From Clavaria fumosa (Eukaryota > Basidiomycota > Agaricomycetes > Agaricales > Clavariaceae): a stretch of 64,000 nucleotides of DNA. The notes beneath the pieces are model-generated. The model was not told where the DNA came from. It worked only from the letters and a program-made list of their open reading frames with translations, and did no database searches. The stretch covers positions 2,294,001 to 2,358,000 of the forward strand of contig OX637800.1 of the NCBI GenBank assembly GCA_951802425.1, read 5' to 3'. Positions 23,301 to 62,461 of the stretch are shown here, in pieces. The position numbers and the translations under genes were made by a program. Position 1 is the first letter of the stretch, and the number at the start of each line of letters is the position of its first letter.

Positions 23301-24161
23301 TCGATGCGGAGCAAGGGTATCTGCCTTCTTTTTACTGAAGACATCTGGGAAGTCCCTGTACTCCTCCGGAACGGAGAGGAGGTCCTGGGGGGTGGTGTCG
23401 GGGATGTTGAACGAAGCGGAGGCCGTGTGCGCGGACTCGCTCGACAACGTCATGCCAAAGACTTGGGACCCGCGAAGTCCACAAGCCGTGACGAATGCGG
23501 CAGCATTCACAAAAGAAACTTTGGGTGTCTCCTGGAGAGACAGAGTAGACGGAAAGGTCAGAGACTGGGTCAAAGATGGAGACGGAGTCCGGGTCTGGTT
23601 CAGAGTCGCTGCAGACGACATTTGAACCGGAGCACACAGAGCGGAGACAGACAGAGGGACAGAGTGGAGAGTGCTGGCCGGTGCACCCTCCGGATCAGAT
23701 TTCGGAGTTTTCTCCTCTTTCGTAGATGGTCTGGGCTTTATCTGGCCAGTAATCCAGTCAACCAGCGGGTTGTTTTGGAACAGCCAATTCATTCCCAAGA
23801 TCACATCACTAGAGGGATCAAGATCAGTAACTACACACAAGACGTCGGTCGGATCCATGGCGGAGAGCCGAATGGATAACCAGACCGCTTCGGTAACCCA
23901 TACGGAGGTGGTCCTGTTAATAAAAATGACCTCCCGAGGGGTCACCGGAGTTTTCGGAAGATGGAAGCGAGAAGCAAATTTGGCGTCAATGAAACAAAGT
24001 TCAGTGCCGGAGTCTATCATAGCTTTGAACGGAGACGAAATAGAAGGAGAGGAGGCAAGAAGGGAAAGAGAACAATGAAAGGAAAGGGTATCGAGTATCG
24101 GTTCAGTACGATCGGAGTCGGAGCAGCCGGAGAGTCGTACTATGCTCTCTGGGCTGCTCAA
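20375..24161 (-). pseudogene. Gypsy pol of element C, disrupted
   Basis: The polyprotein cuts itself, copies RNA to DNA and integrates it. In order on the minus strand: aspartic protease (AMIDSGTELCFID, about residue 50), reverse transcriptase (RLCIDFHGLNKVT, then VYLDDILIYS near residue 450), RNase H (VETDTSDYA near 597), integrase zinc finger (HDHLLAGHFGRT and CKSCTTCGRAK), core (SMDFIKQLP, SDRGSKF, HPEGDGQTERTNQTLEQ) and chromodomain (YLVWWSGYEG). Breaks are an in-frame TAG at 21626-21624, a frameshift at the A run near 21241-21248, and a TGA at 20827-20825. It overlaps gag by 4 nt. Confidence 0.93.
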
Positions 24162-26947: not shown

Positions 26948-29900
26948 ATGTCTCACAAAGGAACTTCAGCACTGAAGGAGAGAATTTATTCTTTTCCTCT
27001 AGTGTCGCCACTGGACTCAAGGGTGTGTTATCATATGTACCCTGAATCTGCACCCCAGGGGTTTTGGGTGTGTTATAATATTATAAGCCCTGCATCTGCA
27101 CCCCAGGGATGTTGGGTGTGTTATACTGTATGCCCTGTTTCTGCACCCCAGGGTTCTTGGGTGTGTCATACCGTATACCCTGTTTCTGCACCCCAGGGTT
27201 CTTGGGTGTGTCATACTGTATGCCCTGTTTCTGCACCCCAGGGTTCATGGATGTATTATCACAGTACAAACTCCAGTTCTGCATCCTTACATGGACTGGA
27301 GTATTATGTAGTCCATGCTGCTTATGCCGCTTGGGCTTTTTGGGATTCTTGTCATGATAGCATCTATTATCATGACACAAATGCCAGTTTCGCATTGCTA
27401 CAAGGACAAGACCATGCTGCTTATGCTGCTCAGGCTTATTTGGATTCTTGTTGTTGTGCTGTATATTCTAGGGTGCATTATCATGACACAAATTCCAGTT
27501 TTACGTCACTACAAGGACAGGAGTATTATAAAGTCCACCCAGCTTATGCTGCTCAGGCCTTTTGGGGTTCTTGTTGCAATGTATACCACACTTGTCCAAA
27601 AGCATTCATATATTGTTTTGTTTTTATCTGTTTCATGTGTTTCAGATTTTGGAAGACAAGCAGTAAATTTTTCAAAGGAAAGCTGGTAATTGTATTTTGG
27701 AGAAAATTGATGAATTGTCACATATATGCCACACTGTCAGTGAAAGCGTTGAAGAAACCAAAACACCTGTTGGGTTTTATTCCACACAGCAAGATTATGG
27801 GAGGTGGTTTATGTGCATTCTCATATGATGATATCCTGCCTTACATGCAGGAGATTATAGAGCGTAACAATGACTTATACAAGTTCAAGACATACATCAA
27901 AATCAGTGATGCATTTCAGCATGAGTATGTGTGCAACATTCCAAAGGAAATGTTAATTGAGTATCTAACTGTGATGGAGTTGAAACTAATTGCCAAACAG
28001 CACAATATATACACGAGCACTAAAATACAAAAAGAAAAACTCAAGGCCCTTATAATGAAACACAAATGTGATAACTGTGCTGAATTTGTGTCTGTACTTC
28101 AGTGTATAAATATCCATGAACTTCTTAAGGCATCCAAATCAGACAATCTTGCAAGTGTAAGAAAGTATCAAAAGAGGATGGGTGCTGCGTACAAAAGAAT
28201 GAATGTGAAATCTGCTAAAAAGTATAGAAAAGATAGGAAAGATACAACTAAATTGAGTGAAATCACTTGTGCTGAGGATAGAAAGGTTGATATGAAAGGT
28301 GTATCAAAAAAATTGAGTGACATCACTTATGCTGAGGATAGAGAGGTTCATATGAAAGGTGTATCAAAACCAGGCAAGGGAGGCAGATGCCGCACCTTCC
28401 CACCTCCACCTCCATCTTATGAATTGCAGCACCAAATTTTGTCTGACGCATGTAATGACATGGCCATTGATTGCATTCAGGAACAAGGATGTGCAGTATG
28501 TGGAAGGTTGACCTTAATTTGTGACATGAGACAGCTTGTTGATGTTGACTTGAATCTTGATATATTAGTCAGACCTGGGGTCACACAAGCAGAACGTAAA
28601 AGTGAGGCAGAAAGAGTGACAGAGCTATCAGGCCCTGTATTGCTACCAAAAGCAGATAAAATATGTATGACATGCCACACATCTTTAAAGAAAGAAAAGA
28701 TACCTGTCATGAGTCTTGCAAATGGAAACTGGATTGGAGAGGTACCAGATGCATTAGCAAAACTTTCTTTTGCAGAACAACTACTGGTTGCTAGAGTTCG
28801 TCACAACCGATGTATAGTTCGTGTTTCATCTGGAATGCACAAAATGAGAGCCAATGCAATCACATTTGCAAATCCAATACCCAAAGTGTATGATGTGCTG
28901 CCTCCACCAATAGAGGAGCTTGATGATGTACTAGCTTTCATATATACAGGACCATGTCAACCCACTAAATCAGACTTTGAAAGAATGCCACTCTTAGTCA
29001 GACGCAAAAAGGTTAGAGATGCTTTGGAGTGGCTGAAACTTAATCACTCTGATTATTATGATTTGGAAATATCATTGCGGAACCTTGAGGAGTACCCAGA
29101 GGATGAACCTCCTGTGGTTGTAGACTATCGTCTGTCATATGAAAATAAGGATCCAGAGTCAACAGCAGTCAACGATGATGAAAGAGAAGAGGGAGTTGAA
29201 AATGGAATTTGTCCATTTGTTGTCCATGGCTTAACGGGAGAAGAGTATTCTACAAAAAGCCTAAAAGCTCTTAAAGCAATTGCCCTTGAACACCTCACAA
29301 AGAACAGGAAAGTTCTAGCTATAGGTCATGCACCTCAAGCAGAAAGTATATATAACAACCCTCAACTATTTCCACAGATGATGCTGTGGCTTTTTCCATA
29401 TGGTCTTGGAGGGGTTGGAAACAACCTTCATGCAGTACATGTGTCAGATTTTGCACACAAGCAACACTTATTGATGTACCATGACAAAAGATTTCAGAAG
29501 GATCCTTACTTTCCACTGATAGCCTTTAACCATGAGCAAATTAAGCAGAGCACAAGTGGAGGGTATTTACTTGCAGAAAAGACTAAATTTGAAGACATTT
29601 CTAAAAGGTTACTGGATGTAGACCTTTCTGCTTTATCAAATCTCACTTCAAGAATGGAAAAAGGAGAAGCAGTTAACCCAGAAACCAATGAGGAAAAGGT
29701 GTGTTTTCAGCTGTTGAAGGATATTGATCATGTGGGAGGTCATGTGAAGGGTTCAATCACCAACAAGAAGTATATGCGTAATGAAATTTGGGCTTTGATC
29801 TCTTTCATTGGAGCACCATCATGGTTCATTACATTTGCACCTGCAGATGTCAAGCACCCCATTTCTCTGTATTATGCTGACACACAAGTCCAATTTCAAC

Positions 29901-31522
29901 CCAGCATCAAAAGTTATGAACAACAGTACAGGTTAATTGCACAGAATCCTGTAGCAGGGGCAAGGTTTTTCCATTTCATGTCCAAAATGTTTATCAGACA
30001 TGTTTTAGGCATTGGGAAAAAGCATTCTGGACTTTATGGAGATACAGCTGCATATTATGGAACAGTAGAACAACAAGGTCGCCTCACACTACACATGCAT
30101 ATGCTTGTATGGATTAAATTTGCATTATCACCACAGGAAATCCGAGACAAAATAATGGACACATCCTCTGATCTCCTCCAAAAGATAGTTGAATATCTTG
30201 AGGGAGTCCATTCAGGAGAGTTTTTGACTGGATCAATGAGTGATGTCAAAAATAGTGTAGAACATAATGCAACATGTCCAAGCTACCAAGATCCAACACA
30301 AACACTGCCTAATCCCCCTCCCCCAATTTGTCAGTGTAAGGAAAGAACCAATTGTTCTCACACCAAATCATGGAAGGAGAAATATAATGCAGAGGTTGAT
30401 GACTTGATATTTCATTCAAATATCCATACTTGCACCAAAAATCAGGTCATGGGGAGCGGAACCCATGCAAAGGGTAGACCATCTTGTATTAACAAGTATG
30501 GACTATGTAAAGCCAGGTTTCCATGTCATATTTACTTACAGACTGAATTTGATATGAAAACAGGTGCACTTCATATTAAAAAAAGAGAGGCATGGTTGAA
30601 TACATTCACTCCACTTGTGACATATCTACTGCGATGTAACACAGATGTGACTAGCCTTCTATCAGGGACAGCAATTAAAGCTGTAGTGGCATATGTTTCA
30701 GACTATATTACAAAGCCTGGACTGAAAACTTATAGCATTTTTGAAGCAATAAGAGGAGTGTTCAATCGTAATTCCACAATGCTTGGAGGAAATATGAGTC
30801 GCAAAGAGAAAGCACGACGTTTGATTGTACAAATTGTGAATACATTGACGTCAAAGATGGAGATAGGAAGTCCAATGGCATCTCTCTATCTGTTGGGCAA
30901 TCCAGATCATTATACAAGCCATGTCTTTGTTACCATTTACTGGAGGCAGTATGTAAAGGAAGCATTGAAGCCTTGGAGTGAGAATGCTCAAAATGAAGTT
31001 GACATAGAAGGACCAGACAAGGTGATGTTACAACGAGTACAAAATCACTATGTTGGAGTATCATCAGTGCAAGACTATCTGTATATGCCAATGAAATATG
31101 ATGATATCACATTGTATGAGTGGGTTCAGAAAGCTTCTAGGGTTAAACAACCTTCATCACAACAACAGTATTCAAAGGTAGCAGGAGAAATTGATGAACT
31201 AGATCTATTTCAAGATGTAGATACAGAAGCAGAATGTGAGAATGTATTACATGCACCCCAACAATGTCAATCAGCATCAAGTGTTGTATGTGCAGACACT
31301 GATGATGAACTGAACCTTGTCTATGATGACACATGCCAAGATGAAGTAGAGGCACCATGTGCCATTCATGAGAGCACAAGTAAGTTACACAATGAAGACA
31401 GTACCATAGTAGATAAATTATATATGAAGGAGCATCCCTTGCATGAAACTCATATGGTGAAGTTTGATGATAGAAAAGGTGAAGTAGTGCCTAACTTCAT
31501 AGGAGGCACTCTCCCAAGGTGA
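26948..31522 (+). pseudogene. Helitron Rep (HUH endonuclease) part
   Basis: One open frame of 1524 codons. The first 200 or so are in-frame translations of two minisatellites and may not belong to the original protein. Then come a Cys motif (CAVCGRLTLICD, about residue 515), the Helitron-like N-terminal region (MLWLFPYGLGG, SYEQQYRLIAQNP), the HUH motif (LTLHMHMLVW, near 1047), Cys clusters (CQCKERTNC, and CINKYGLCKARFPC), and the two catalytic tyrosines (AYVSDYITK, near 1250). It nicks and rejoins the DNA strand. The ending TGA at 31520-31522 stands where relatives read Arg (LPR-R-DRGDREYY), and the frame continues beyond it. Confidence 0.9.
27005..27570 (+). repeat. Two in-frame minisatellites in the Helitron 5' region
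   Basis: First, about five 45-bp units (CTGCACCCCAGGGTTCTTGG...; 27040-27260). Then three units of about 115 bp (27270-27570, GCTTATGCTGCTCAGGC...). Both unit lengths keep the frame open through the arrays (45 is a multiple of three; the longer units vary in steps of three). Confidence 0.75.
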
Positions 31523-33740
31523 GATCGGGGTGATCGGGAGTATTATTGTGCCACAATGCTCACACTATTTAAGCCATGGAGAAATGGAAAGGATCTAAAA
31601 CTACAAGGGCAGACCTGGGATGAAGCTTTTGAAATCTATGTCTTTACACAAGGACAATTTAAGTTAATGGATAATTTCAATATAAGGTATGAGTGTAATG
31701 ATGCAAGGGATGACTTTGCTGCTCAAATGAAGCAAAATATGTCTACACCTGGTTTGGGCATGCAAAGTTCAGCAACTGATGATTGGGATGATGTAGAATG
31801 TGGACAGGGAGATGATTTTGGGGATGACGAAGGGGAAGACAAGGTGAATTATGGGCTGAATTGTTACACTACACTTGGTGCACGAGGTAAAGTAATACAG
31901 GCTCAAATGAATGCTACAGAGAACTGTGTGAGAAATGCTGGGTGGCTTGATGAAAGTCCAGATGGCATAGATCTCATAGACACCAATCCATATGAACCTG
32001 AAGTAATGCAGCGAGCAGAAAAATGGAAGATGGTTGTACAAGAAAAGCGAAATGCAGTGTTAGCTGAAAGAAGTGCTACTATTATAAAGAACAACTCTGG
32101 CAAAAACATAGACCTGGCATTACAAGGGGATGGAAAAGTTTCTATAGTTGACTCTTCTTATTTACGTAAAAAATTTCAAGCTCAGCATAAAGCAGATCAA
32201 GAACAACTAGATCTGACTGTCATGACCTTCAACCTGAACAAGGAGCAAGAGAGAGCTTTTAGAATTGTTGGCAATCATGCTGTGACACAAGGAAGTAAGC
32301 AACTTAGAATGTACTTGGGTGGGATGGGTGGAACAGGTAAATCACAAGTGATTAAAGCATTGAAGCAATTCTTCTTGCAAAGACAAGAGTCTTATAGGTT
32401 CCTAATATTAGGACCCACAGGAACTTCAGCAGCATTACTGGCAGGTTCTACATATCATTCTGCCTTGGGGATTCAAGTTGGCAGTATTGGTAGAGGAGGT
32501 GCTTCAATGGCTCATGTACAGGCCAGACTTGAAAGAGTGAATTACATCTTTATAGATGAAGTTTCTATGGTGGCATGTCATGACCTGTACAAAATCAGCG
32601 CACAATTAGCCAAAGTCACAGGAGTGATTGATGTACCTTTTGGAGGCATAAATATGATTTTTGCTGGTGACTTTGCACAACTCCCCCCTGTTGGTGGTGC
32701 TCCTCTTTATAGTGGATCAATTGGAACACAAAATGAATCATCATTAAAACCACATTTGCAACAAGCAGCAATAGGTAGGGCCCTTTGGCATCAAGTGACC
32801 ACAGTTGTTATACTTAGAGAAAACATGCGACAGACAAGTCAAACCACATGTGATGCTGCATTTCGAACTGCACTTGTAAATATGAGATATGGGGCATGCA
32901 CACCACATGACATATGTTTCTTGCAAAGTAGAATTGCAGGGATGCTTCCAAACCAACCTAAGCTTGCATCTAAGAATTTCCGAAATGTCCCAATCATTTG
33001 TGGTATGCACACTCAGAAAGACATGATCAATCAACTTGGATGTGAAAGATTTGCAGCGGATACTGGTCAAAGATTGACCAATTTTTTCTCTAAAGGACAA
33101 GTGGGGGAAAGGATGGGACCCTGCTGTAAAAAAGAAAAGAAGTGGCAGTAGAGCAGGTCATTCAATGCCACAACACTCCTCAGATAGCATTGACTTTGAC
33201 ACTCAGAGAGAGATATGGAAAGTCAGGCATGGATCTACAGAACACTTTGCAGGGAAATTGTCATTGTGCATTGGAATGCCTGTGATGATTAGAAATAATG
33301 AAGCTACAGAGTTATGCATAACAAAAGGTCAAGAGGGCTTTGTTGCTGGATGGCAAAGTGGGAAAGGGCAACATAATAAATATGTTCTTGACACCCTTTT
33401 TGTAAGACTTGATAATCCACCTCAAACCATTCATTTACCAGGCCTACCACCTAATGTTGTACCTCTTGTGAAAGGGAAAAAAACAATCAATTGCATGTTC
33501 CCAAGTGACAGAACAGAAAACATTGAGAGACAACAGGTGTGGGTATTGCCAAATTTTGCTATGACAGCTCATGCTTCACAAGGGAAGACAAGGCCATACA
33601 ATGTAGTTCATTTGAATAGCTGCACATCACACATGGCATATTACACTGCTTTGTCTCAAAGTGCTTCAGCATCTGGTACAGTCATCATACAGGGATTTGA
33701 TTCCAGAGTCATTACTAAAGGATGTTCTGGTTATCTCTGA
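31523..33740 (+). pseudogene. Helitron PIF1-type helicase part
   Basis: Continues the Rep frame after the TGA (DRGDREYYC). Walker A is GGMGGTGKSQV near 32320, Walker B is IFIDEVSMV near 32546, and there are GDFAQLPPV and LRENMRQ motifs. After 33094 one extra A in a TCTAAAGG run shifts the frame, ending the frame at 33151 while the true reading goes on in the frame of 33165-33740, with TAHASQGKTR and the final YTALSQSAS motif. The TGA at 33738-33740 again replaces an expected Arg (GYL-R-QEFRE). Confidence 0.9.
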
Positions 33741-34777
33741 CAGGAATTTCGAGAACAAGAGATTCTAGATGACATTACAAGGATGAGATATGAAGGTCAT
33801 CTTCCTGCACATATCAATGGCGAGATACGAAACACCTTGATCAGTCAGTTTCGGGAGTGGAAAGGGGATATGTACATTCCTGACAAGACTGATTCCTGTT
33901 TGAGATGGTGTAGTAAAGATCCCTTCATTACATCTTCTCCACACAATTATGATCCATGGCAGTCTGTTAATAAACACAAACCAAAAGACCTTGACCACTT
34001 GCATCAAATGACTCATATGGTCCTTGAGCCTGTAAATAAGGGTCAACAGTTTCATCATGTCCATTCAATGAAGAAGCATTACTTGGAAGATTTAGATAGT
34101 CATCAGGTTGCCAAAAAATTGAAGATCAAAGTTCAGAATAGTGTCACAAAGGGAAGCATGTCTTTGCATGGATTGACATGGAATAACATGAACTGGAGCT
34201 GTGCATATGATTCTTTATTTGTGATCATTCATGCAATATGGAGTCAAAGGACAAGTGTTTGGACTGAGAGACTAAAATCAGTAGGGAATACATACTTGTC
34301 TCTTCTTGTAGATGGTTTTGTGCAGATGTTACAACAAACAACTACATTTGAAGAAGTAAGAGATGCATTAAAGCTTCACTTGCACAAGAAGGATCCTATA
34401 CAATTCCCTTTAGGTCAAGTTGGGACAAGTGTAGCAGATTTAGCCATTGCAATGATGACATCATGTGACATAATGACTTTGTCACAAGTCAGATGTTCAA
34501 AATGTCATTATGAGGGGGTACATAGGCTAGAGTGTGTATTGCATGCAAATAGGCAAAGGGTTTCTATTACCACTGCAGAATGGGTGGACTCTTTGAAAGA
34601 TCAAGTATATCCAGAGTGTCCTGAATGTCACACTAAAGCATCAAACTCAATCTTGTATCAACAGCCCCCACCTCTATTAATTTTGGAATATCCTGGCTGT
34701 AACATAGTCACAAGTCATACAATTAAGCTGAATGTAGTTAGTGGTTCAGTCCAATTTCACCTGAGAGGCATCATATA

Positions 34778-34990
34778 CAGTGAGGGACAAAACTGTTGCA
34801 ATGTTTGGTCATTTTGCATTGTCATCTGTATTACATATCATATATTGGAGATAAAATTGGCTAAAAATATTCTTTAAATAGACCTACTTCCTGGCTATAT
34901 TTCAACATTTATCCCATATAAATCCATTCATTAATCACTGAGGAATTAAATATTTTGTGTGGGGGTAGCATTGCAACAGTTTTGTCCCTT
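34778..34990 (+). repeat. Left long inverted terminal repeat with two motif copies
   Basis: The outer motif (GAGGGACAAAACTGTTGCAATG) starts at 34782. An inverted copy lies at the inner edge (34961-34987). The stretch between is similar to the right repeat read backwards (GACCTACTTC, TGGCTATATTTCA). Confidence 0.85.
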
Positions 34991-35148
34991 CCAGTCTGAT
35001 GGTACAAAGTCACCTGATTTTGTTGATTTGCTACAAAATAGAGCACAGCCACACATTGCAATCAACAATGTCAGGTGACTGGTTCATTTTGTGGTATATA
35101 TACACCCCCTTGGGGTGCAACCATCCTCCCCCCAGAGCTCAGAGCAGC

Positions 35149-36165
35149 ATGAAGCCCCTCACCACTACTCAGGCTAATCACATCCTTTCTCTGCTTGATT
35201 CTGGGCACTCTGCCCATCAGATATCCTCTCTGACTGGAGTCCACACCAGCACCATCTCCAGGCTTCACTCCAAACATCGTTCCTCCCTTTCCAAATCCCT
35301 TGGTGGTCGACCCTCCCTCCTCTCTGATGCCAACATTCGCTATGCCCTCCACCTTATCTCATCCCAGAAGGCTGAGAATGCCACCCAAATCACCAAATCT
35401 CTTCAGGATATCACCAACCAGCCCCTCTCCTCCAAAACTGTATGTCGTGGCTTGCAGAAGGCTGGGATGAAAGCTGTGGTGAAGCAGAAGAAACCCTCAC
35501 TGTCTCAGAGACACAGGAAGGAGAGGATGGATTTTGCTGTCAGCCACCAAGATTGGACTGTGGAGGATTGGAAGAAGGTTGTCTGGTCTGATGAGACCAA
35601 GATTAATCATTTTGGTTCAGATGGGAGGAGATGGGTGTGGAAAAAGGCAGGGGAGGGCCTGAGTGATAGGCTTGTGCAGGGGACTAGGAAGTTTGGGGGG
35701 GGATCTCTGATGATGTGGGGGTGCATGATGTGGGAAGGACCTGGCTATGCAGTCAAGATTGATGGTAGGATGGATGCAGAGCTCTACACCAAAATCTTGG
35801 AGGAGGATCTTCAAGCCAGCCTCACCTATTATGACAAAACTTCCAGAGATGTCATCTTCCAACAGGACAATGACCCCAAACATGTCAACAAGAAGGCCAA
35901 GGCTTGGTTCCAAGACAATAGTTTCAAGGTCCTCTCATGGCCAGCACAGTCCCCAGACCTCAATCCTATTGAACATTTATGGAATCACCTGAAGAAGAAG
36001 CTTGGGGCATATGACAAGCCACCTGGTGGAATACTGGAGCTTTGAGACAGGGTGGAGAAGGAGTGGAATGGGATAGATGCATCAGTGTGCCAGGGACTTA
36101 TTGAAAGTATGCCTAGGAGAGTTGAGGCAGTGTTAAAGGCCAAAGGGGGCCATACCAAATACTGA
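35149..36165 (+). pseudogene. Tc1/mariner transposase (DD34E), one internal TGA
   Basis: Cuts the element out and inserts it at TA. The ATG at 35149 (MKPLTTTQ) starts a helix-turn-helix region (HQISSLTGVHTSTISRLH), a GRPSLL GRP-type motif, and a second DNA-binding part. The catalytic residues are D in WSDETK, D in FQQDNDPKH and E in LNPIEHLW, 34 residues apart for the last pair. A TGA at 36043-36045 stands where Trp is expected (LEL-W-DRVEKEW), and the normal end follows to 36165. Because the stop lies after the catalytic domain, a truncated protein could still be made. Confidence 0.92.
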
Positions 36166-48041: not shown

Positions 48042-48350
48042 CCCCCCCACTGGCACCTGCTCAGGTGTCAAACAACGAAAAAATAGAAAGGAAAGGCATA
48101 GGGGTGCCCTGCAACTCCACCTAGGAGCCATGGGCCCATCCAATCACTCAGCCAAGGCCTTGTTGGCCATGGGTCCTTCCCATGTCAAGGCACATAGGGG
48201 TTAGCATCAGGAAAAAATGCTCAAGCAATATAGTACTATGTAGTCATGGTAGCAGCAGTAGCTCAGTAGCTAGTAACGAGTTATTTAGGCCCAGTAGACC
48301 CCATATATTGCTCTGTAGTAACAGTAGTTCCCTGTAGTAACAGTAGTTCC

Positions 48351-49205
48351 TGTCACAGCCCTATCCAGTTACCCAGCCACCTCCGAAACACCTGCAATTA
48401 CCTCCAATACATCTCCGATGTATCTCCGCTCCAACTCCGGCACCCCCGCTCCAACTCCGCCTTCTCCGCTCCAATTCTGCTCTGTCTCCGCTCCGGGGTC
48501 CGAAACTCCGGTCCGGACTTTCGTCGGACTTCGATATTGGTCCTTCGGACCAAATGGACTTTGTTTCTAGCATGTTCCTTGGTGCTAGTCCATGGTTAGT
48601 AACCATTGGGACGATGCCCACTACCCATGGGAACTTATTCTTTGCCTTACATGTATCATCTATGCCTTTCTCACTCCTCAGGTGAAATTATTGTAGATAT
48701 TTGATATATTCATGTTTCACAGTCTGCCCTATGCCCTACCCTAGTAGCATATAAGCCCCCATGTATCTCCATGATCCTCAGTTCGAATATTAACGTTATT
48801 TCTGGTCCTTGCCACTTGGTCTGTGTGTTAAGGGACTTCATCCTCACTGTTCTCAACAGTCCCGACGAGTTCCGCAAAACTCCGGCGGACTCCGACGGAC
48901 TCCAGGCGATTTCCCTTTGGACTTCATCCTTCCTTGTCCTGGAAAGCAAAGTACCAGCAAGGTTAAATTGGGACACGTATACACGTGGTGGCACAACCCA
49001 TAAGTTGAGGCCATAGTCCCACCCCCTTTTACCTCCCTCTAGTCCTTCTAGCTTTTGTGTAGAGGAGAACTCCTTACGCAACTCCGATCCGGACTCCGAC
49101 CGGACTCCGCTCCGCTCCAGCTTCGCCTTTGCCACCCTCCTTTTTGGTCTCCTCTACACTACCCCTCCCTACTCCTGCTTTGAAGCAAAGAATCAGATCT
49201 TAACA
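48351..49205 (+). repeat. Solo LTR, 855 bp, TSD GTTCC
   Basis: It starts TGTCACAGCC and ends GATCTTAACA, flanked by GTTCC (48346-48350 and 49206-49210). The block GGGACACGTATACACGTGGT and the CGGAGTCCG words relate it to the LTR family of element C. It lies inside the 7.4-kb element and so is younger. Confidence 0.88.
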
Positions 49206-49439
49206 GTTCCCATATATTGCTCTGTAGCACTGAGTAGATTCCATACAATGCACCAGAGTTTACTTGTCTCAAACAGTAGCCAGGGTTGATACTACAGTAG
49301 ACTGTGGTAGTGCTATGTGCTGCTTCCTGCTGCCACCACTGCTCCTTCCTTCCTCTGCACACCAGCTACCACGAAATCAATGGCCCAGGTCCCCACTGTC
49401 AGTCTGTGACTGCAGTAGGGGGCCTGGGCCATTGCTGCT

Positions 49440-50490
49440 GCTGCCGCCCTCACTGCCATTATGGTCGCTGCCACCGCCATCATCGCCGCTGTTGCCGCTG
49501 CTGTTGTCGCCGCTGTCACCACCGTCACTGTTGCTGCGCCACCGCCGCCGCCGTTGTCGCCACTGTCACTGCCGCCGCTGTCGCCACCGCCATCGCCGCC
49601 ACTGTTGCCACCGCCGTCGCCGCCGCTGTTGCCACCGCCGTCGCCGCCGCTGTTGCCACCGCCGTCGCCGCCGCTGTTGCCACCGCCGTCGCCGCCGCTG
49701 TTGCCACCGCCATCGCCGCCGCTGTTGCCACCGCCGTCGCCGCCGCTGTTGCCACCGCCGTCACCGCCGCTGTTGCCACCGCCGTCGCCGCCACTGTTGC
49801 CACCGCCGTCACCGCCGCTGTTGCCGCTGCTGTTGTTGCCGCTGTCACCACCGCTGTTGCTGCTGCTGTTGTCACCGCTGTCGCCACCGCTGTTGCCGCT
49901 GCTGTTGTCGCCGCTGTCGCCACCGCCGCCGCCGTTGTCGCCACTGTCACTGCCGCCGCCATCACCGCCGCTGTTGCCACCGCCGTCGCCGCCGCTGTTG
50001 CTGCCACTGTTGCCGCCGTCACTGTCGCTGCGCCACCGCCACCGCCGCCGCCATCGTCGCCGCCGTTGTCACCGTCACTGTCGCCACCATTGTCACCGCC
50101 GCCGTCGCTGTCACTGCCGCCACCACCACCACCGCCGCCGCTGTCGTCGCTGTCGCTGTCACCGCCGCCACCGTTGTCGCCGTCACTGTCACTGCCGCCG
50201 CTGTTGCCGCCGCCGCCGTCACTGTCGCCGCCGCCGTTGCTGTTGCCGCCACCGCCGCCGCCATCGCTGTCACCACCGCTGCCGCCATCGCTGTCGCCAC
50301 CGCTGCCACCATTGCTGTCGCCACCGCTGCCGCCATTGCTGTCGCCACCGCCGCCGCCATTGCTGTCGCCACCGCCGCCGCCATTGCTGTCGCCACCGCC
50401 GCCGCCATTGCTGTCGCTGCCGCCGCCGTCGCTGTCACTGCTGCCGCCGTCGCTGTCGCTGCCGCCGCTGTTGCCGCCGCTGTAATGAAA
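49440..50490. repeat. GCC-rich minisatellite, 24-bp core unit
   Basis: 49570-49850 is a clean array of GTCGCCGCCGCTGTTGCCACCGCC units; the rest is degenerate triplet repeat of the same wording as 37.0-38.5 kb. All six frames stay open for long stretches, so the ORFs are not evidence of genes. Confidence 0.92.
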
Positions 50491-50515
50491 AGAAAGAAAG
50501 AAAAAAGGCATGCAC

Positions 50516-51645
50516 TCAACGACGCTTAGGGAGCAATGTGATGTACTTCTCAGCCTTGATGCGTCTTCCGTCCTTGCCAAAATAGTGCTCCTCCTCGAAC
50601 GACCAATGTAGGCTGCCGACGATCCAGTCCGCCAGCCCTTGGACATACACAGCGACGTCGCGGTCCACCGCGGAGCCCCACAAGGGCAGCCCTGCGCGTA
50701 GCACAACGAAGCGGTTGATGGATTGTTTGCAGAGCGCGCCCACGACATCGACCGCGGCCTGCAGGTCCAGCCCGTCTTGGTGCATGATCACGGAGATCAT
50801 GTTGTGCGTGTCGCCCTTGGACTGCTCGACGTTGTAGGAGAAGATGTCCTGCGTTCCGAGCGAGAGTTAGGATACGCGAAAAAGCGCAGAGGGCTGGCGT
50901 GACGCACGTTGCTCCAGGTGACTAAATCGTTCGCGCTTTCGCCTAGAGCATGGATGGTAGGGTGGTCCATCACTTCGTCTGGGATGTCGAGGTTGTTCGC
51001 ATACTCGATGAGGGCCCAACAGGGCTTGCAGCCACTCGTGTCACGTCGGAGGGCAATGTATGTTTCCAGGTCGGGTATGACGCCGTTCGCACGATCGCGT
51101 GCCTGTTGAGTCACCGCCTGGAAGAAGAAGTCGAAGGTCTCAATGAAGCGCTGCTGCGTTCCGGGTTTCGCAGTGAGGACGAGTCGTCTCCAGTAGCTAG
51201 AAGGGGGTGGGTGAACATCAATTGGACGACAGCGCAGCCACACTTACTCTCTTGTCATCCTCCCGGGGAGACAATCTGAAGCTGGGTCAGCGGAAAGCAT
51301 TCCACGGCCTCAAGGCTGGGCTCCTTACTGCGATGTGCTATCCCGAGGCAGGACTCCCTCAGCTCAGAGTGTGCTGCGATTTCATGAACTATCTCTTCCA
51401 TCTCGACAATCTGTCAGATGACATGAATAATCGTGAGACGCGCAGCATCGCTGATGCAGTCCTGAACTCGCTCTACCATCCGAATTCCCGGCATTCTCCT
51501 GCTAGAGTCGAAAAAGCCACTTTTTCGACTCGACGGTGGCCTGCTTGCGATTACGGTTGCATCGGAGTGCAAAGGTACAGTGCGAAACAAGGTCCGGAAG
51601 GATAATTTTGCGAGGATTCGTGGTAGGTGTGTAAGAAGCGGCCAT
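50516..51645 (-). pseudogene. Sesquiterpene synthase (protoilludene-synthase-like) with inverted segment
   Basis: Class I terpene synthases cyclise farnesyl diphosphate. On the minus strand: exon 1 at 51645-51505 (MAASYT..., then ILPDLVSHCTFALR); an exon end RMTRD to 51248; intron 51247-51197; exon 51196-50908 (YWRRLVLTAKPG, KPCWALIEYANNLD); intron 50907-50849; last exon 50848-50516. The Mg-binding NDxxSxxxE motif is formed across the last intron (SN|DIFSYNVE). The C-terminal pair usually RY reads HY (EEEHYFG). The missing part (AFHGLKAGLLTAMCYP, then the FHLDNLSDDM Asp-rich motif) is at 51264-51504 on the plus strand, that is inverted in place. Otherwise frames and splice sites are intact, and the length (about 340 aa) is normal for the family. 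The present copy cannot make an enzyme. Confidence 0.9.
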
Positions 51646-51789
51646 GGTACATGTAGATTGATTGGCATAGCGAGCGACAATGTAAAAGAGGGGTTAGAAA
51701 GGAATGGCGAGCAAAGGGCTGGTAAGACAACGACTTTGAGAGCCTTGCTTTATACCCAGAAATCCCGGCCTGAGACGTGAAGATTGTGA

Positions 51790-52265
51790 TCTAAACGGCA
51801 TGCGTTGCTGCTGCTGCCGCTGCCGTCATGGTAGTTGCTGGAGGAGAGGGGAAGGAAGAGGGAGGAGAGAGGGAGGGAGGAGAGGGAGGAGAGGGAGAGT
51901 GAGAAGAGTGAGAGAGAAGAGAGGGAGAAGTGCCGCCGCCCTCACCATCGCCCTGTAGATTAAAAAAATGAAATGAATCATGAAAAAAAGGGAGAGGGCG
52001 CACCTGGTGGCCCCTCATTGAGGGTGCCGCCGCTGCCGTGGTTGTCACTGAAGGAGAGGGAGAGGGAGAGAGAGAAGGTGCCGCCACTGCCGCCGTCATC
52101 GCTAGAGGAGAGAGAGAGGGTGAGGGTACTGCCGCCGTCGTCGTCATCGCTGGAGGAGGGTGAGGGTGAGGCTGCCGTCGTCGTCATCGCTGGAGGTGAG
52201 GGTGAGGCCGCCGTCGCCGCTGTCGTTGTTGCTGGGGATGGGAGAAAGGGAGGAGAGAGGGTGAT
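51790..52265. repeat. GCC/GAGGG minisatellite near terpene synthase
   Basis: Alternating GCCGCCGTC and GGAGAGAGGGAG units with one intron-like spacer (51952-52003, minus strand reads AG|GTGCGCC...ATCTACAG). It starts about 150 bp upstream of the synthase start codon. Confidence 0.75.
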
Positions 52266-52329
52266 GGTGGGAGGCAGAGAGAACGACAAGTTCAACACAG
52301 AGCATGTGACGACTTTCTGAGATGGCATG

Positions 52330-52877
52330 CCACAAGTACAGCCACAAGCTTACCAAATCAGTGACCCACAAATGTTCTTGCCTATTTCTCAGTCAATTCT
52401 CAAGCAATTCTCAAGATTATTTTTTTCATAAGACACTACTTGATCTGTAGATTAATGTGGATATGTCAAAAAAAAAATCTGTACTAATTTACCAAAATAA
52501 ATGGGTACCAAGCTTTATCCAAGCTTTGAACACCTTTTTGGAGCAATCTTTTGGAAGAGATCATATTCATCCAAACTATTATGATTGATTTGATGTGTAT
52601 AAATATATTACTGTCAAGTTGCCATCCAAGCCCCAAGCTGATGAACAATTATATCAGATTCATGGAATGCCTGGCCATTCTAATGGACCATGCAAGCCAG
52701 CAACTTGAACTCCACCATGCTTTGACACTACCTTGATCATTGAAAACAAATCACAGTGGAAAGAGGATGGATTAAAGGGTTAGTCTAAGGCTATCAATTG
52801 TCTACAATTTGATGTCAACTTCAACTAGGTCTTCATGTAGCAAGATTGCATGTGATTTTTGATCTTCCAAAGCATCT
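52330..52877. other. No gene seen
   Basis: AT-rich interior of the 7.4-kb element without a supported gene. Confidence 0.4.
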
Positions 52878-53280
52878 CATCAGCAAAACAGCTCAGCTAA
52901 GTTGTCAGTATACTGTACCATTTCATTCAATTGACCTGTCATGCATCACACACACACCCAATTTGGCCAAAAATCACACTGGTCACACATCATTTGAGGA
53001 ATCAGTCAATTTGTAAGGTGAAATCCCCTTTTTGGGTGACAATTACCTAATATATATATATACTGGTGGAGGGGCAGTCAATTATCCCTCATGTCATGCT
53101 TGACTTCTACTTTCAGTCAATTCAAATTTGACTGGAGGTGTCATGCATCACACCACCTGGTCAATTGAATGAAATGGTACAGTAGAGAGGTATGTAACAC
53201 CCCAAGACAACTTGGGGTGTTACACACCAGTCTATACCAGTCCATACTTACATTTAGCCAAGCTGTTTTGCTGATGCCAC
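52878..53280. repeat. Imperfect inverted repeat with nested perfect hairpin
   Basis: The left arm (52878-52937, CATCAGCAAAACAGCT and TACTGTACCATTTCATTCAA) returns inverted at 53158-53184 and 53260-53280. The right arm is longer because it holds a perfect 13-bp palindrome (53194-53206 and 53211-53223, GTAACACCCCAAG with loop ACAA). This fits a MITE-like foldback with a second small insertion. Confidence 0.6.
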
Positions 53281-54042
53281 CTGGGCATAGTACCACATCC
53301 TTTAGCATATGTTCATTGGTACAGACCACTTACAAGCTTTGATCTAGCAACTGGCATGTATCAGATTATTTTGTCTACTTGACAAAATTCTGCAAATGCT
53401 GAAGTAGTCAGCATTGATAGGATTTAGCACAGTTGTCTGTTGATTCCTCACTTTGGATCAGCAGATGTACCTATCTCATGGACTGGAAATCATGCTCTTG
53501 ATTCAGCAGCTTGATTTTATCTCAACAAGTATACTGATATGCATTCATTTATGGAGTACAAATCTTTGTAACAATTTTAGTCAAAAAGAGACTACTCTAT
53601 GTACTTGTCATATACTGCACAATATCATGAATTGTTCATTTTAATCCTAATCTATAGCCTGCTGAAACACTCATGAGTTTATTGCTTCAACCTTGCATTG
53701 GAACTCACCTCACCTCCACTCAGCTCCTGATTATATCATAATCATGACAACATCTGAAAAGGGTACAAGAAAGGTAAAGATGCAGTATATAATGAGTGGT
53801 TCAGGTGTTGCTGGCATTCCCACACTTGGACCCCAAATGTCACGTGATGCACCAGGGCCCAGGTCATGTGACTTAGCCATTATGTAATCAGTCTGCAGTT
53901 CAGGTCACATGATCTACCCACAATCTTCTGCAACTCTTCCACAATCCTCTTTGGGCCTTTCTGGCAATGCTTATATAAGCAGTCCTGACACATACTCTCA
54001 CTTCTATGGCTATAATTTGGTTACTGTCTGCTACTGAATTCA
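53281..54042. other. No gene seen
   Basis: AT-rich sequence with no supported feature. Confidence 0.4.
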
Positions 54043-54345
54043 ATGTAGTACATAGGCTCTACTACCATGACTACAATGCACTCATAATATGCTACTAGGC
54101 TCAATATAGTACATAGGTTCTACTACTGTGACTACAATGCACTCATAATATGCTACTAGGCTCAACATAGTACATAGGCTCTACTACCGTGACTACAATG
54201 CACTCATAATATGCTACTAGGCTCAACATAGTACATAGGCTCTACTACCGTGACTACAATGCACTCATAATATGCTACTAGGCTCAACATAGTACATAGG
54301 CTCTACTACCGTGACTACAATGCACTCATAATATGCTACCCAGTC
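54043..54345. repeat. Tandem array, 61-bp unit, nearly five copies
   Basis: Unit GTACATAGGCTCTACTACCG...GGCTCAACATA repeats with only a few changes, and more in the first copy, so it expanded recently. There are no spacers of unique sequence, so it is not CRISPR-like. Confidence 0.9.
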
Positions 54346-55160
54346 TATTGCATGCTATATAGTAATCATACCTTCTATGTATTACTATTTTTCTCACTAC
54401 ATATGCTACAGTGGTCTATACAGTCTGTGTAGTCTACATAGTCTTTGCTGACAGCTACTGCTGGGGGTTCTTTTTCCTGATGCTATTTTGGTATGGGGCA
54501 TGGGTATCGTGGGGAATAGGGAAGGGCATAGCAGGTGAGGACAGGGCTGCCAGATGATGGGGTGAGGTCAGAAGACCTTGGTGAGGCTGTAAAGCCTACA
54601 GCAGTAACCAACTGCCGTGAACCTCAGGGAGCAACGGTGTGGACGCAAAGCTTGCGATATCTTGATAACGATGAAGGCTCACCGGAAGCGCTTTAGACCA
54701 TGTGAAAGCGCGTCGAAAGGAGCCCAGAATCGATCCCAAATCGAAAGGGATCAGGCAGGAATTGATGGGATGCCGAAAAGGTGGGGGGAAGGGGGAGCAG
54801 ACCGAAGAAGATGGCGATGCGCCATAACAGCTGGACGGATTGGCGCGCAAAGAATATCGTCTGAACGCGGTTGAGGCGGCCTTTCGAAGGAGCCTACCCG
54901 CGTGCGATTTCGTCCGCTCGATGTTGAGTTATCGTCGAATCTTGTTTTCAGATCTGTGTCCTGGTTTCTCCCCAACCGCTCCACCAACACCCACCAACAC
55001 CCACGTATTAGGGCTCGTTCGAACGCGGTTCTTGAGGCGAATCGATCGGCGGTCGAATCGAGTGAATCCGATAAGTGGTCGTTGAGAAAAAACACAAACA
55101 GTGCGTAGCACTGCTACAATGCCTGCCCAAATTAATGGGAGGCAAGGTAATGCAAAAAGG
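54346..55160. other. Leader-like region of the 7.4-kb element, no clear gene
   Basis: 54600-55100 is CpG-rich, unlike the AT-rich flanks, and holds open frames of about 110 codons on the minus strand and 80 on the plus strand, but I see no motif or conserved pattern. Confidence 0.4.
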
Positions 55161-57626: not shown

Positions 57627-58925
57627 ATGGCTGACGCCGCACCCGCACCCGCACCTGCCCCTGCCCCCGCAGCGGCACCAGTAACGTTGAATTTGAAGAT
57701 CGCCCCCTACTCGGGAGAGCGAACAGAGTTCCAAACCTTCCTCCGCAGTCTCCACCTGGAATTTAGGGTGAACGCTGCCAGATATCCCACGGACTTCCTC
57801 AAGGTGGTCTTCACCTTGAGCAACATGACAGAAGGCTACGCTGCAGAGTGGGCAAATCAAGCTGCCACGGTTCTGCTAGAGGAAGGAGGAGAGCAGGTCA
57901 TCTGGGCGACCTTTGAAGCGAGGATGAGGGAGGCCTTCTCCCCCATTGAGGACCAAGCCCTGGCGGTCCAGAAGATAAACCTCTTCAAGCAAGTGCAGAT
58001 GGACGCTGCACAGTTTTTCCAAAAGTTCGAAACGCTGATGAACCAGGCCGGCTACGACGAGGAGACGCACTGGAACGTGATCCACGCGCTACTAATGAGG
58101 GCCCTACACCCTAAACTGATGGAGAAAGTGCTCTCCTGCGCCGAGCAACCCGCGGATTACCAAGCTTTCCGGGTGCTCACCATACGACTAGACCGTCAGC
58201 ACCAACTACACACAGCGGTACAGAGAGAAATGCGAGCCCAAACGGCACCCGCTCCTCGCTCCGCCTGGAACCAGCCCGCGCAACGCCAACCCCCACAGAA
58301 CCGTTACTGGCGCTCGCCTCAGTGGCAGCCACAGGCGGTATGGGAAAGGCAAAACCAGTGGAACGCACCACCCGCACAGCCACAGCAGGCACAATGGCAA
58401 CCACCCCCCCAGCAGCAGCAGCAACAACAGCGACAGCAGGCACCGCCCCCCGGACAATGGAACAGACAGGCCCCGCCGGGTACCAGGCAAGGTACCCCGA
58501 TGGACACGAGCCGAGGAACCGGCCCTCGTCGCCCGCTCATTTGTTATAATTGCGGACAAGTTGGTCACCCAGCCCGACTGTGCCCTGAGCCGCCCCAGCG
58601 TCGCGCCACACCTAGACAACAAGCCAGACTCGGAAGTGCATTTGAGATGCGCTCGCCCCCCGGGTATTACACGCCGCCCCCGTTTTCACCATACCCTGTG
58701 CCCGCCTATCCGTCATCACATCCAGCCTCCCTAACGTCATTCAACCCCTCGTACGCAGCCTCGACGGCTGCACAGAACGACTACGAGGAAATGGAAAATA
58801 CCATTGCGCAGTTGAGAGATCAACTGCACATCCAGCAGAGACCCAGAGCACCGACGCCTGGACCGGAGACAACCACAGCAACGTCAAATGCCGGAGATCA
58901 GGATTTTCGAGAGGGATCCACTTAA
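57627..58925 (+). CDS. Gypsy gag of element B (432 aa)
   Basis: Builds the particle and binds RNA. An Ala/Pro repeat at the N-terminus is followed by the retrotransposon gag core (IAPYSGERTEFQTFLRSLHL, WATFEARMREAFSP, FFQKFETLMNQAGY), a Gln/Pro-rich linker (QPPPQQQQQQQRQQ), a CCHC knuckle CYNCGQVGHPARLC near residue 306, then a Pro/Tyr-rich tail with a short coiled coil. The start is the ATG 4 nt after the leader ORF. The frame is intact; pol follows in the -1 frame. Confidence 0.95.
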   Translation: MADAAPAPAPAPAPAAAPVTLNLKIAPYSGERTEFQTFLRSLHLEFRVNAARYPTDFLKVVFTLSNMTEGYAAEWANQAATVLLEEGGEQVIWATFEARMREAFSPIEDQALAVQKINLFKQVQMDAAQFFQKFETLMNQAGYDEETHWNVIHALLMRALHPKLMEKVLSCAEQPADYQAFRVLTIRLDRQHQLHTAVQREMRAQTAPAPRSAWNQPAQRQPPQNRYWRSPQWQPQAVWERQNQWNAPPAQPQQAQWQPPPQQQQQQQRQQAPPPGQWNRQAPPGTRQGTPMDTSRGTGPRRPLICYNCGQVGHPARLCPEPPQRRATPRQQARLGSAFEMRSPPGYYTPPPFSPYPVPAYPSSHPASLTSFNPSYAASTAAQNDYEEMENTIAQLRDQLHIQQRPRAPTPGPETTTATSNAGDQDFREGST

Positions 58926-58942
58926 GTGCTAAAGTAGGATCC

Positions 58943-61900
58943 GTGTATATTGTCCCCGCCCGTCGACACCATGTAAACCAGGTCGCAAATGACACACCAA
59001 TGTTTCCTTTGTCGAAAGAGGCTGAGAGGGCTAAGCACACCCTCAAGAACCTCACCCATAAGAAACTCCCAGGGTATAACGATGATCTGGACTGGGATAG
59101 GGATCCCAGGACCACGTACGGGAGAGGAGGAGAACGACAATTGGACATGCCAGGTTTCGTGACCACGCTGGACACCAAGGAGATCTACGACATCAAGCTG
59201 TTAATTGACTCTGGCTGTACGATGTCTGTCATGGACCTGGAATGGGCCACCACCAGGAAGATGAACCTCACAGAACTTGAAACCCCTATAGTGTTCAAAA
59301 ACATCGATGGAACAACGAACATATCAGGGGCCTTCAAGCATTCGGTAACCCTGCGACTCAACATCGGAGGCCATGTCGAAATCAAACAATTTCTATTGGG
59401 GCGAGTCACTGGCTACCCAGCGATTTTAGGGCACGATTGGCTCCGACACCACAACCCTAGTATCCGTTGGTTTGAGAAATACATCCGCTTCGACAAATGC
59501 AAGAAGAAGGACTGCCACATCGTAGACTACGGCTATGGCTTACGAAACACGCACGATACAACGACCGCGCTTGACTGGAAGGCCCTGTACCCTTTGGTGT
59601 TCGCTGGGAAGATGGGCCAAAAGTTGCCCAAATCTCTACCAGGTATCGACTATGAAATCAAGTTTAAAAACGACCCCGGTTTCCTACGTTCGAAAGTCTA
59701 CCCGCTGACCAACAGGGAAGACGAAGCATTGAAAGCCTGGCTCAAAGAAAACTTAGAAAATGGGCGACTAGTATGGGGAGAGTCGGACTATGTCAGCCCC
59801 ATCTTCTTCAAAGACGAGGGAGACAAGCTCCGACCCATTATCGACTATAAACGGCTAAATTCATTCTGCGTGAAGGACATATACCCGCTACCTAGGATTG
59901 ACGAAACAGTAGCGAGCCTGAAGAAAGCCAGAGTGTTCACGAGCGTGGACGTGGAATGGGGCTATTGGAACGTCGCGATGGCCAAATGGGCGCAGCACCT
60001 CGCCGCGATAATCACCAAGTACGGCACGGTGTGGCCCACCGTAATGCAATTCGGGTTAATGAATGCCCCTTCGGTCTTCCAGAGGAGGATGAACTATATT
60101 CTCCGTACCCTAATAGCCACTGGGAAGGTGTTCGTGTACATCGACGACATCCTCGTAGCAACTGAAACAATTGAGGAACACCGACGCCTACTTCACGAGG
60201 TATTCAAGATACTCCAGGAAAATGACCTCTGTGTCCGAGAATCGAAATGCAAAATAGAACAGGCAGAGGTCACGTTTCTGGGATTGCTAATCTCGGAAGG
60301 GAGTATCCGACATTCACCCAAGAAATGTAAAGGGATAGCCGACTGGCCGGTGCCGAGGAACAAGCACGCCCTCCAAAAAGGGATTGGCCTACTAAACTAC
60401 TTCCGGAGATTCATACAGGGATTCGCTACCATCGCCAAACCGCTATACGAACTACTGAGCGACAACGCACCGTATATCTGGACAGACCGACAAGAACGAG
60501 CGTGGAGACGCCTGATCGATACATTGCAGAGCGATGTAGTGTTGGCGATCCCGCAAGATGAAGGCAAGTGGAAGATGGAAGTAGACGCGAGCAATTATGC
60601 CACCGGAGGGGTACTATCACAGCAGCAACCCGACGGCGTCTGGCGACCTGTAGATTTTATTTCAAAGACCTTCTCCCCGGCGGAGATGAACTATGCGACA
60701 TATGATAAGGAATTTTTAGCAATCATCAGGGGACTAGAGGAGTGGCGCCACTACTTGCTAGGGGCCAAGGACCCTTTCGAAATCCACACCGACCATGCAA
60801 ACCTTCAATATTTTCAAAAAAGTCAAAAGCTCAACCCCAGGCAAACGCGATGGCAATCAAAGTTACAGTGCTTTAACTTCGAAGTAAAGTACAAACCAGG
60901 AAAAACAAACATGAAAGCGGACGCCCTCTCCCGACGGCCAGACCACTGGGAGGGAACAGACAAGTACGAAAAACCCTTAGTACAGGTTTTCCCGGCCCAG
61001 CGCCTTGCTACACTCTTAATCCCCGAGCCAACAATTGACCAATTACTCCTGGAGGCACACACAAACTCCATGCCACCTAAAGCGATACCCTATGAGAAAG
61101 GAGCAGATGGACTTTTCAGACACGAAGGAAAAGTCTGGGTACCCCGGGACCTAATACATAAGGTGCTAATGGAGCTACATGACTCCCCACTCGGAGGGCA
61201 CCCTGGACCCGAAAAGACGTTGGAAAGTGTCACCCGACAGTTCACGTGGCCAGGGGTCAAAGAAGACGTAACGGAATATGTAGACGGCTGCGAAAAATGC
61301 CAAAGGACGAAGCCTGACCGAACGAAACGACGCGCGCCCCTGCACCCGCACGCGATACCGCCCTGCCCATGGCACACGATTACCTGGGACCTGATCGGAC
61401 CGCTGTCGAAGTCTGCCACGAACAACGCCATTCTGGTAATATGCGACAAACTTACGAAGATGACCCTGCTGGAAGCTACAGACACGAAACTAACGGCACT
61501 AGGGGCAGCAAAAATCCTACGAGACCGGGTACTTCGCAGCCATGGAGTGCCTTGCAAGGTGATAAGCGACCGAGGATCCCAATTCGTCTCGAATTTCATG
61601 GAAGAATTTTATAAAATTATTGGCATAAAAGGAAACCCGAGCACCGCTTATCACCCGCAAACCGACGGGCAAACGGAGAGGATGAACCAGGAGATAGAAA
61701 TATACCTGCGCTCATACGTCGACTTCATGCAGGATGACTGGTCGGACTGGTTACCCACCGCGGAATTCGCCTTGAACAACCGACAGCACTCCACGACCAA
61801 ATACAGCCCCTTCTTCTTAAACTATGGCTTTCACCCTCGCATGGGTGATATTAGCTTGCCCAATGTGCCGCACACCCCGGAAGCCTCTGACTTCGCCGCG

Positions 61901-62461
61901 AAATTACAAAAAGCCAGAGAAAATGCGAAGAAGGCTATGGAGAAGGCCGCGCAATACATGAAAACCGCCTACGATAAACACAAAAATAAAAAAACATTGG
62001 ACTACAAGAAAGGGAACCTGGTCTGGTTAGACGCCACCAACCTGAACACGGAACGACCAGTAGAAAAACTCACAGACAGAAGAGTTGGCCCTTTCGTGGT
62101 CATAGAAAAAGTAGGACCGGCCGCCTACCGACTCAACCTGCCCGCGACTTGGAAAATCCACCCGGTATTTAACGAGGCGCTACTCACGCCATATAAGGAA
62201 GGGAAATTCCCCAATCAAACTCCAGACGAGCGCCCACCCCCCGAGCTGATCAACGACCACCTACAGCATGAGGTAGAAGAGGTGTTGAAGAGCCGGAAGC
62301 ACAGACGAAAACTGCAGTACCTGGTGAAGTGGACTGGCTATCCCCATGAAGACAACACGTGGGAACCGAAGACGAACCTGAAGGATGCGGCGGAAGCGGT
62401 TGCGGACTTCCACCGGAAGCACCCTGAAGCAGCGCGTTCTCTCACGGTGTCCTTCGCCTGA
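58943..62461 (+). CDS. Gypsy pol of element B (about 1172 aa)
   Basis: Protease (LIDSGCTMSVMD, about residue 87), reverse transcriptase (RPIIDYKRLNSF, then FVYIDDILVA near 398), RNase H (EVDASNYATGGVL near 546), integrase zinc finger (HDSPLGGH...CEKCQRTK, 747-788), core (TWDLIGPL, SDRGSQF, DGQTERMNQEIE), GPF-like region and chromodomain (YLVKWTGYP, DNTWEPKTNL, about 1110-1150). There are no breaks. No ATG opens the frame: it begins at GTG 58943 by convention, but is open upstream across the gag stop in the -1 frame, so it is probably made as a gag-pol fusion. The chromodomain would direct insertion to particular chromatin. Confidence 0.96.
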   Translation: MYIVPARRHHVNQVANDTPMFPLSKEAERAKHTLKNLTHKKLPGYNDDLDWDRDPRTTYGRGGERQLDMPGFVTTLDTKEIYDIKLLIDSGCTMSVMDLEWATTRKMNLTELETPIVFKNIDGTTNISGAFKHSVTLRLNIGGHVEIKQFLLGRVTGYPAILGHDWLRHHNPSIRWFEKYIRFDKCKKKDCHIVDYGYGLRNTHDTTTALDWKALYPLVFAGKMGQKLPKSLPGIDYEIKFKNDPGFLRSKVYPLTNREDEALKAWLKENLENGRLVWGESDYVSPIFFKDEGDKLRPIIDYKRLNSFCVKDIYPLPRIDETVASLKKARVFTSVDVEWGYWNVAMAKWAQHLAAIITKYGTVWPTVMQFGLMNAPSVFQRRMNYILRTLIATGKVFVYIDDILVATETIEEHRRLLHEVFKILQENDLCVRESKCKIEQAEVTFLGLLISEGSIRHSPKKCKGIADWPVPRNKHALQKGIGLLNYFRRFIQGFATIAKPLYELLSDNAPYIWTDRQERAWRRLIDTLQSDVVLAIPQDEGKWKMEVDASNYATGGVLSQQQPDGVWRPVDFISKTFSPAEMNYATYDKEFLAIIRGLEEWRHYLLGAKDPFEIHTDHANLQYFQKSQKLNPRQTRWQSKLQCFNFEVKYKPGKTNMKADALSRRPDHWEGTDKYEKPLVQVFPAQRLATLLIPEPTIDQLLLEAHTNSMPPKAIPYEKGADGLFRHEGKVWVPRDLIHKVLMELHDSPLGGHPGPEKTLESVTRQFTWPGVKEDVTEYVDGCEKCQRTKPDRTKRRAPLHPHAIPPCPWHTITWDLIGPLSKSATNNAILVICDKLTKMTLLEATDTKLTALGAAKILRDRVLRSHGVPCKVISDRGSQFVSNFMEEFYKIIGIKGNPSTAYHPQTDGQTERMNQEIEIYLRSYVDFMQDDWSDWLPTAEFALNNRQHSTTKYSPFFLNYGFHPRMGDISLPNVPHTPEASDFAAKLQKARENAKKAMEKAAQYMKTAYDKHKNKKTLDYKKGNLVWLDATNLNTERPVEKLTDRRVGPFVVIEKVGPAAYRLNLPATWKIHPVFNEALLTPYKEGKFPNQTPDERPPPELINDHLQHEVEEVLKSRKHRRKLQYLVKWTGYPHEDNTWEPKTNLKDAAEAVADFHRKHPEAARSLTVSFA

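Follow-up and report, generated by a model that had tools for sequence, protein, structure and literature searches.

A copy of a putative sesquiterpene synthase gene within a TIR transposon of Clavaria fumosa, broken by a small in-place inversion

The window is a 64,000-nucleotide stretch of the Clavaria fumosa genome (C7:2294001-2358000) taken from an assembly of 48.76 Mb in 17 contigs, and it contains a copy of a terpene synthase gene in which part of the first exon is reversed. A genome search with window positions 51200-51700 returns the window itself and a single place on C12, where the middle part of the match (query 64-311) is in the opposite orientation to both of its sides; the flanking parts, when used as queries in the same genome, are also found at two places, C7 and C12 only. 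The matching stretch covers 50483-51802 in three blocks, which are 96.7, 97.2 (the reversed block) and 94.1% identical to C12. The features of the window copy are as follows:

50483..51802, minus strand: captured gene copy of 1.32-kb, comprising 3' flank, three exons, two introns and ~155 bp of upstream sequence; its blocks are 94-97% identical to C12:1708693-1710020
50516..50848, minus strand: exon 3; PF19086 at 4.6e-13 on the piece 50516-50866; changed WxxxxxRY motif (R317H), S285L and S315E
50908..51196, minus strand: exon 2; PF19086 at 7.8e-30 on the piece 50887-51195
51248..51263, minus strand: 3' remainder of exon 1, ending at the splice donor, from comparison with C12
51264..51510, plus strand: inverted exon 1 segment of 247 bp, including the Asp-rich motif DNLSDD; ends uncertain by 1-2 bp
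51511..51645, minus strand: 5' part of exon 1; start codon at 51643-51645

The window copy is collinear with the C12 copy except for ~247 bp of exon 1, which is reversed in place with no change in net length. A sequence-only reading of this DNA had described a plus-strand DNLSDD segment enclosed by exons on the minus strand, and both the reading frames and the comparison with C12 bear this arrangement out; the inversion it placed at 51264-51504 is real, however its right end was set 6 bp short of the 51510 found here. The frame of the window copy meets a stop at 51502-51504 after 47 aa, and one continuous coding frame with all motifs is absent from this copy owing to the stop, the reversed segment and the changed R317. 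The inverted segment has no Pfam match when searched alone, and an Rfam search of the window gave 0 matches.

The C12 copy (coding part C12:1708724-1709853) has all of its parts on one strand. Two introns split the gene, which is read from the minus strand, into three exons (398, 289 and 333 bp); together these encode 339 continuous residues, and this is the complete synthase of normal length that flipping the segment had been expected to yield. PF19086 is recognized at C12:1709116-1709604 with 110.8 bits against a curated cut-off of 23.7, as is characteristic of a class I terpene synthase, and the protein contains all three expected motifs: DNLSDD at residue 93, NDIFSYNVE at 229 and WSFESERY near the C terminus. 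A total of 571 homologous proteins was found; the best of the 120 listed is 79% identical, and most of the named homologues among those 120 come from mushroom-forming fungi, the best ones from several genera. The best solved relative is 7ofl (384.6 bits, residues 10-338), which is identified as Copu9 of Coniophora puteana, since 7OFL is the sole deposit of a paper whose available portion describes the Copu9 structure and treats Copu5 as a model. Copu9 shares the NSE pattern and WSFxxxRY with the C12 protein, however its Asp-rich motif is given there as DDWLD as opposed to DNLSDD in the C12 copy; in the same portion of the paper the WxxxxxRY motif of Copu9 is described as folding onto the active site. 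By homology, the C12 gene is predicted to encode a sesquiterpene synthase whose nearest solved relative is a delta-cadinol synthase. The identity of a Delta(6)-protoilludene synthase is rejected; the protoilludene synthase 8h72 scores 218.1 bits in this comparison of solved structures only, and the protoilludene synthase homology proposed earlier gives way to a closer relationship with the (+)-delta-cadinol synthase Copu9.

Codon by codon, the C7 copy differs from the C12 copy by 19 synonymous (including base 51511) and 11 nonsynonymous changes (dS 0.0857, dN 0.0142, ratio 0.166). No further stop was found in this comparison, and the 1020 bp of coding sequence have no indel away from the inversion junctions; at the junctions themselves the alignment places one base out and one in, which stems from the block ends chosen. 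The flanks of the gene copy display four indel events relative to C12. The clean frames had been taken to mean that the inversion was recent; with a dS of 0.086 between the copies they are little guide to its date.

The effect of the nonsynonymous changes was assessed against 90 homologues, the first 90 with 325-360 residues among the 120 listed (571 found). R317H replaces the arginine of the WxxxxxRY motif, which is R in 90/90 homologues aligned; S285L (S in 85, C in 3, T in 2), D274N (D in 87, N in 2, E in 1) and S315E (S in 66, T in 24) also fall at conserved sites. H32N and R215H affect intermediate sites (H in 71 and N in 7; R in 59 and H in 1), and P9T, A278V, T120S and R122H affect variable ones. 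Because changes hit conserved sites, the WxxxxxRY motif included, the C7 copy would probably encode an impaired enzyme even if exon 1 had kept its original orientation.

The two junctions of the inversion carry the following features, both of which are as described in the sequence-only reading:

51260..51270, no strand: left junction, near-palindrome CTCCCGGGGAG; 3-bp CCG/CGG overlap of both sides
51505..51531, no strand: right junction, perfect 12-bp-arm palindrome with a 3-nt loop (inverted repeat I2), from an inverted repeat search and comparison with C12

A model in which the C12 sequence undergoes an equal-length inversion leaves 10 mismatches over 431 bp, compared to 191 without inversion. 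Four intervals of 243-249 bp tie as the best; the one used here is 4973-5219 of the C12 locus L005, corresponding to 51264-51510 of the window. Of the ten mismatches, seven are dispersed over the segment and two over the 5' flank; the tenth is the junction base 51511, where plain inversion predicts G and the window has A, and this A completes the 12-bp-arm palindrome. At the right breakpoint C12 already contains a stem of 8 bp with one mismatch, the quasi-palindrome CGGAAAAG CCA CTTTTTCG. The other half of the palindrome comes from CGACTC, which occurs in the right flank as well as at the segment's far end. Among random inversions of 100-500 bp in the C12 gene, a junction stem of at least 12 (one mismatch allowed) arises in 10/6000; if the left end alone is varied it arises in 5/800, the observed inversion being among these 5. 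The palindrome was already known when this junction-stem test was designed. The comparison with C12 and the palindrome together uphold the earlier description of a terpene synthase gene that a short inversion in place has disrupted, one of its breakpoints coinciding with a hairpin.

The gene copy is bordered on both sides by sequence from one repeat family, and this places it within a transposon:

48205..54482, plus strand: TIR DNA transposon copy holding the gene copy, from a family that looks non-autonomous, with ends CATCAGGAAAAA / TTTTTCCTGATG, from the family alignment and termini
49428..50482, plus strand: GCC/GCT-type triplet minisatellite of the transposon, start approximate; the gene copy is inserted at its end

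A 35-place pattern of the 5' end, allowing at most 3 mismatches, has 43 matches in the genome including the window copy and 0 for a control read backwards. Ten other copies of the transposon were fetched and both ends were recognized in six; all six of these relatives (6/6) are flanked by 2-bp target duplications, a count in which a second, more distant and unpaired 5' candidate in L050 was set aside. The window copy has no 2-bp target duplication (AG / CT at 48203-48204 and 54483-54484). Because the duplication is missing, the history of this transposon copy has itself been disturbed, and one of its ends may have been rearranged or replaced. Capture by a Helitron, suggested by ORFs at 31-34 kb with a helicase-like appearance by eye, is rejected, as the termini found are TIRs and the relatives have 2-bp target duplications.

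Gene sequence is present in 0/10 of the fetched transposon copies. In 8/10 the 3'-side alignment begins no more than 5 bp from the insertion point, and the triplet tract extends right to that point; the offset is 42 bp in L045 and 38 bp in L047, where the insertion point is approximate. At the right capture junction ~2 bp (TG) are shared with the gene-less copies, and at the left junction there are almost none. L042 looks to be non-autonomous, since the minisatellite and the adjoining tract account for all five of its ORFs longer than 100 aa, which are of low complexity. With regard to Pack-TIR elements or transduplication, host DNA does lie between the TIRs (48205, 54482) and is absent from the sister copies; the chimeric element, however, has AG / CT in place of a target duplication, and there is no sign that it moved or multiplied, with gene pieces at C7 and C12 only. 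The position of the gene copy as an insertion within a transposon was absent from the sequence-only reading and is new here.

The history considered probable is a Pack-TIR-like capture of the terpene synthase gene, followed by a hairpin-assisted inversion that disabled the captured copy; the order of events and both mechanisms are what we infer from the comparison of the copies. Direct observations are the existence of two gene copies, the inversion as measured against C12, the unbroken C12 frame, and the transposon with its gene-less relatives. The intron-containing C12 gene would have entered the triplet-minisatellite end of the TIR element on C7 as a 1.32-kb DNA copy, with gap repair or template switching guided by microhomology as the most likely route. 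The captured copy then seems to have been kept under some constraint for a while. Later, the growing strand is proposed to have folded back at the existing quasi-palindrome and copied its own arm, producing a perfect stem; the new end, ..CGACTC, would have annealed to the corresponding 6 bp at the opposite end of the segment and served as a primer, from which the polymerase would have copied the segment backwards and rejoined its own template through the 3-bp CCG/CGG match. The outcome would be a dead C7 copy beside an intact C12 gene. Fold-back template switching is favoured because the right breakpoint sits in a quasi-palindrome whose sole mismatch is corrected at 51511, and because random inversions seldom produce a long junction stem; base 51511 could also be an ordinary substitution among the ~3% separating the copies.

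An ordinary substitution at 51511 is assumed by the first alternative, in which two double-strand breaks ~247 bp apart were followed by end joining in the reversed orientation and no hairpin was involved. The equal length, the near absence of bases gained or lost, and junction overlaps of 0-3 bp are all in keeping with end joining; it leaves unexplained, however, why a breakpoint falls in the quasi-palindrome, why its mismatch is corrected and why CGACTC is common to both places, and the 10/6000 frequency of long stems also argues against it. This alternative is judged unlikely.

The second alternative overlaps the preferred capture and later inversion and differs in the order of events; a polymerase filling a gap would have copied the C12 gene and switched strands within exon 1, leaving the C7 copy defective from the start. 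Capture and inversion would then be one template-switching repair event, and the 247-bp flip a fossil of the polymerase changing strands. Template switching would be needed for both steps, and the insertion lies at a triplet minisatellite, where replication forks may stall. The four C7 nonsynonymous changes at conserved residues (D274N, S285L, S315E and R317H) also speak for this order, and the nonsynonymous rate is not significantly lower than the noncoding rate (P 0.13). The synonymous excess over nonsynonymous changes, however, suggests constraint after copying: for a C7 copy that was neutral since copying, at most 11 nonsynonymous changes of 30 have P 0.0008-0.047 across 12 model combinations, and the lack of any coding indel apart from the junctions points the same way. 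Since nonsynonymous changes are few and coding indels away from the junctions are missing, the comparison suggests that the C7 copy was under constraint for a time and that the inversion came later. This dating from dN/dS is moderate evidence only, as the synonymous and noncoding yardsticks disagree; introns and flanks have 9 substitutions in 308 bp, which is below the synonymous divergence (Fisher P 0.0098). A single event is a doubtful reading; if true, it would document directly, at sequence level, the route by which host genes enter such elements.

An assembly artefact, which had been mentioned as possible, is very improbable; low-complexity tracts on both sides would favour one, however the segment is non-repetitive, diverges from C12 by ~3% inside and outside the inversion alike, bears a mutational signature at base level at its junctions, and belongs to an assembly of 48.8 Mb in only 17 contigs. 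The reversible genetic switch also raised earlier, in which a recombinase flips the segment back and forth, is scarcely credible despite the exact segment ends and the open frame on the segment's own strand, as similar inverted recombination sites are absent from the ends (the longest inverted match between the breakpoint surroundings is 5 bp in the window and 6 bp in C12) and the C7 copy has also lost the conserved motif Arg.

The inversion resembles the microinversions ascribed to template switching in human and chimpanzee, in great apes and in S. cerevisiae, with which it has in common an in-place reverse complement with length kept and no net loss, a palindrome at a breakpoint with correction of a quasi-palindrome, and a short end match; inverted repeats of at least 3 nt abutting the segment are represented by CCG/CGG, of 3 bp only. 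The human-chimpanzee set is described, in the available part of PMC8755829, as 17-33 nt long and bordered by inverted repeats, of which 11% measure just 3 nt, whereas the inversion here spans ~247 bp inside the exon of a captured gene; where the repeats are as short as 3-4 nt, that same part favours microhomology-mediated break-induced replication above plain template switching as the mechanism. Template switching is reported to homogenise arms and invert spacers in yeast genes (PMC8604942, in part) and to make perfect inverted repeats, with quasi-palindrome conversion suggested for some great-ape events (PMC7954356, likewise in part).

The capture is comparable to Pack-TIR, Pack-TYPE and transduplication events, which also feature intron-containing host gene DNA between TIRs, in single copy and inserted away from the ends. 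It differs from Pack-TIR and Pack-TYPE elements in that a whole gene with upstream sequence was taken, in one copy with no sign that the chimera moved, and in that the window copy is without target duplication while its relatives have one of 2-bp; the element is placed with TIR elements and not in a superfamily. For single-copy Pack-TIRs in animals, the accessible text of PMC8277862 proposes an origin in gap filling, with template switches guided by a median microhomology of 2 bp; gene capture between TIRs has been described in a fungus (PMC3538342), and capture by helicase-bearing elements has been suggested in fungi (PMC10799480), as far as the portions available of these two papers go. Among the literature matches listed, in which subscription papers are sparsely covered, there was no case of a microinversion in a fungal pseudogene or of an inverted basidiomycete sesquiterpene synthase pseudogene.

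The locus belongs to known kinds of mutation and combines gene capture with template-switch inversion; no new kind of switch is revealed. The case is unusually well documented: a single assembly contains the source gene in intact form, its broken counterpart, the transposon around the latter and ten gene-less sister copies, which makes the breakpoints and the one corrected base directly readable. The locus links gene capture with hairpin-assisted template switching, and further strains could decide whether the two co-occur.

Several minor observations accompany the two gene copies. Within 50483-51802, 10 sites are CG in C12 (L005) and TG/CA in C7, and 4 differ the opposite way; the excess of CpG decay in the transposon copy could be a trace of cytosine methylation acting on the element. 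On C12, L005:6575-6777, which lies about 1 kb from the matching stretch, is 74% identical, in reverse, to window 53756-53955 in the same transposon; this could be the relic of an old element close to the source gene. At C10:2648092-2657045, the Asp-rich segment has four matches within 9 kb (L008, L009, L011 and L012), which probably represent clustered terpene synthase genes belonging to another lineage.

Within the transposon, an 856-bp repeat in the 5' part (48350-49205) has at least 40 other nearly full-length places in the genome at 90-99% identity, with 40 of 605 candidates scored; it is possibly a solo LTR or another small element. Elsewhere in the window, four long plus-strand ORFs at 26948-34877 are taken by eye to be a Helitron-type replication-helicase set (helicase-like at 31-34 kb), the ORFs at 21624-25333 and 57627-62461 resemble, again by eye, Ty3/gypsy-type gag and pol, and a 348-aa ORF at 34999-36045 has the appearance, by eye, of a Tc1/mariner transposase.
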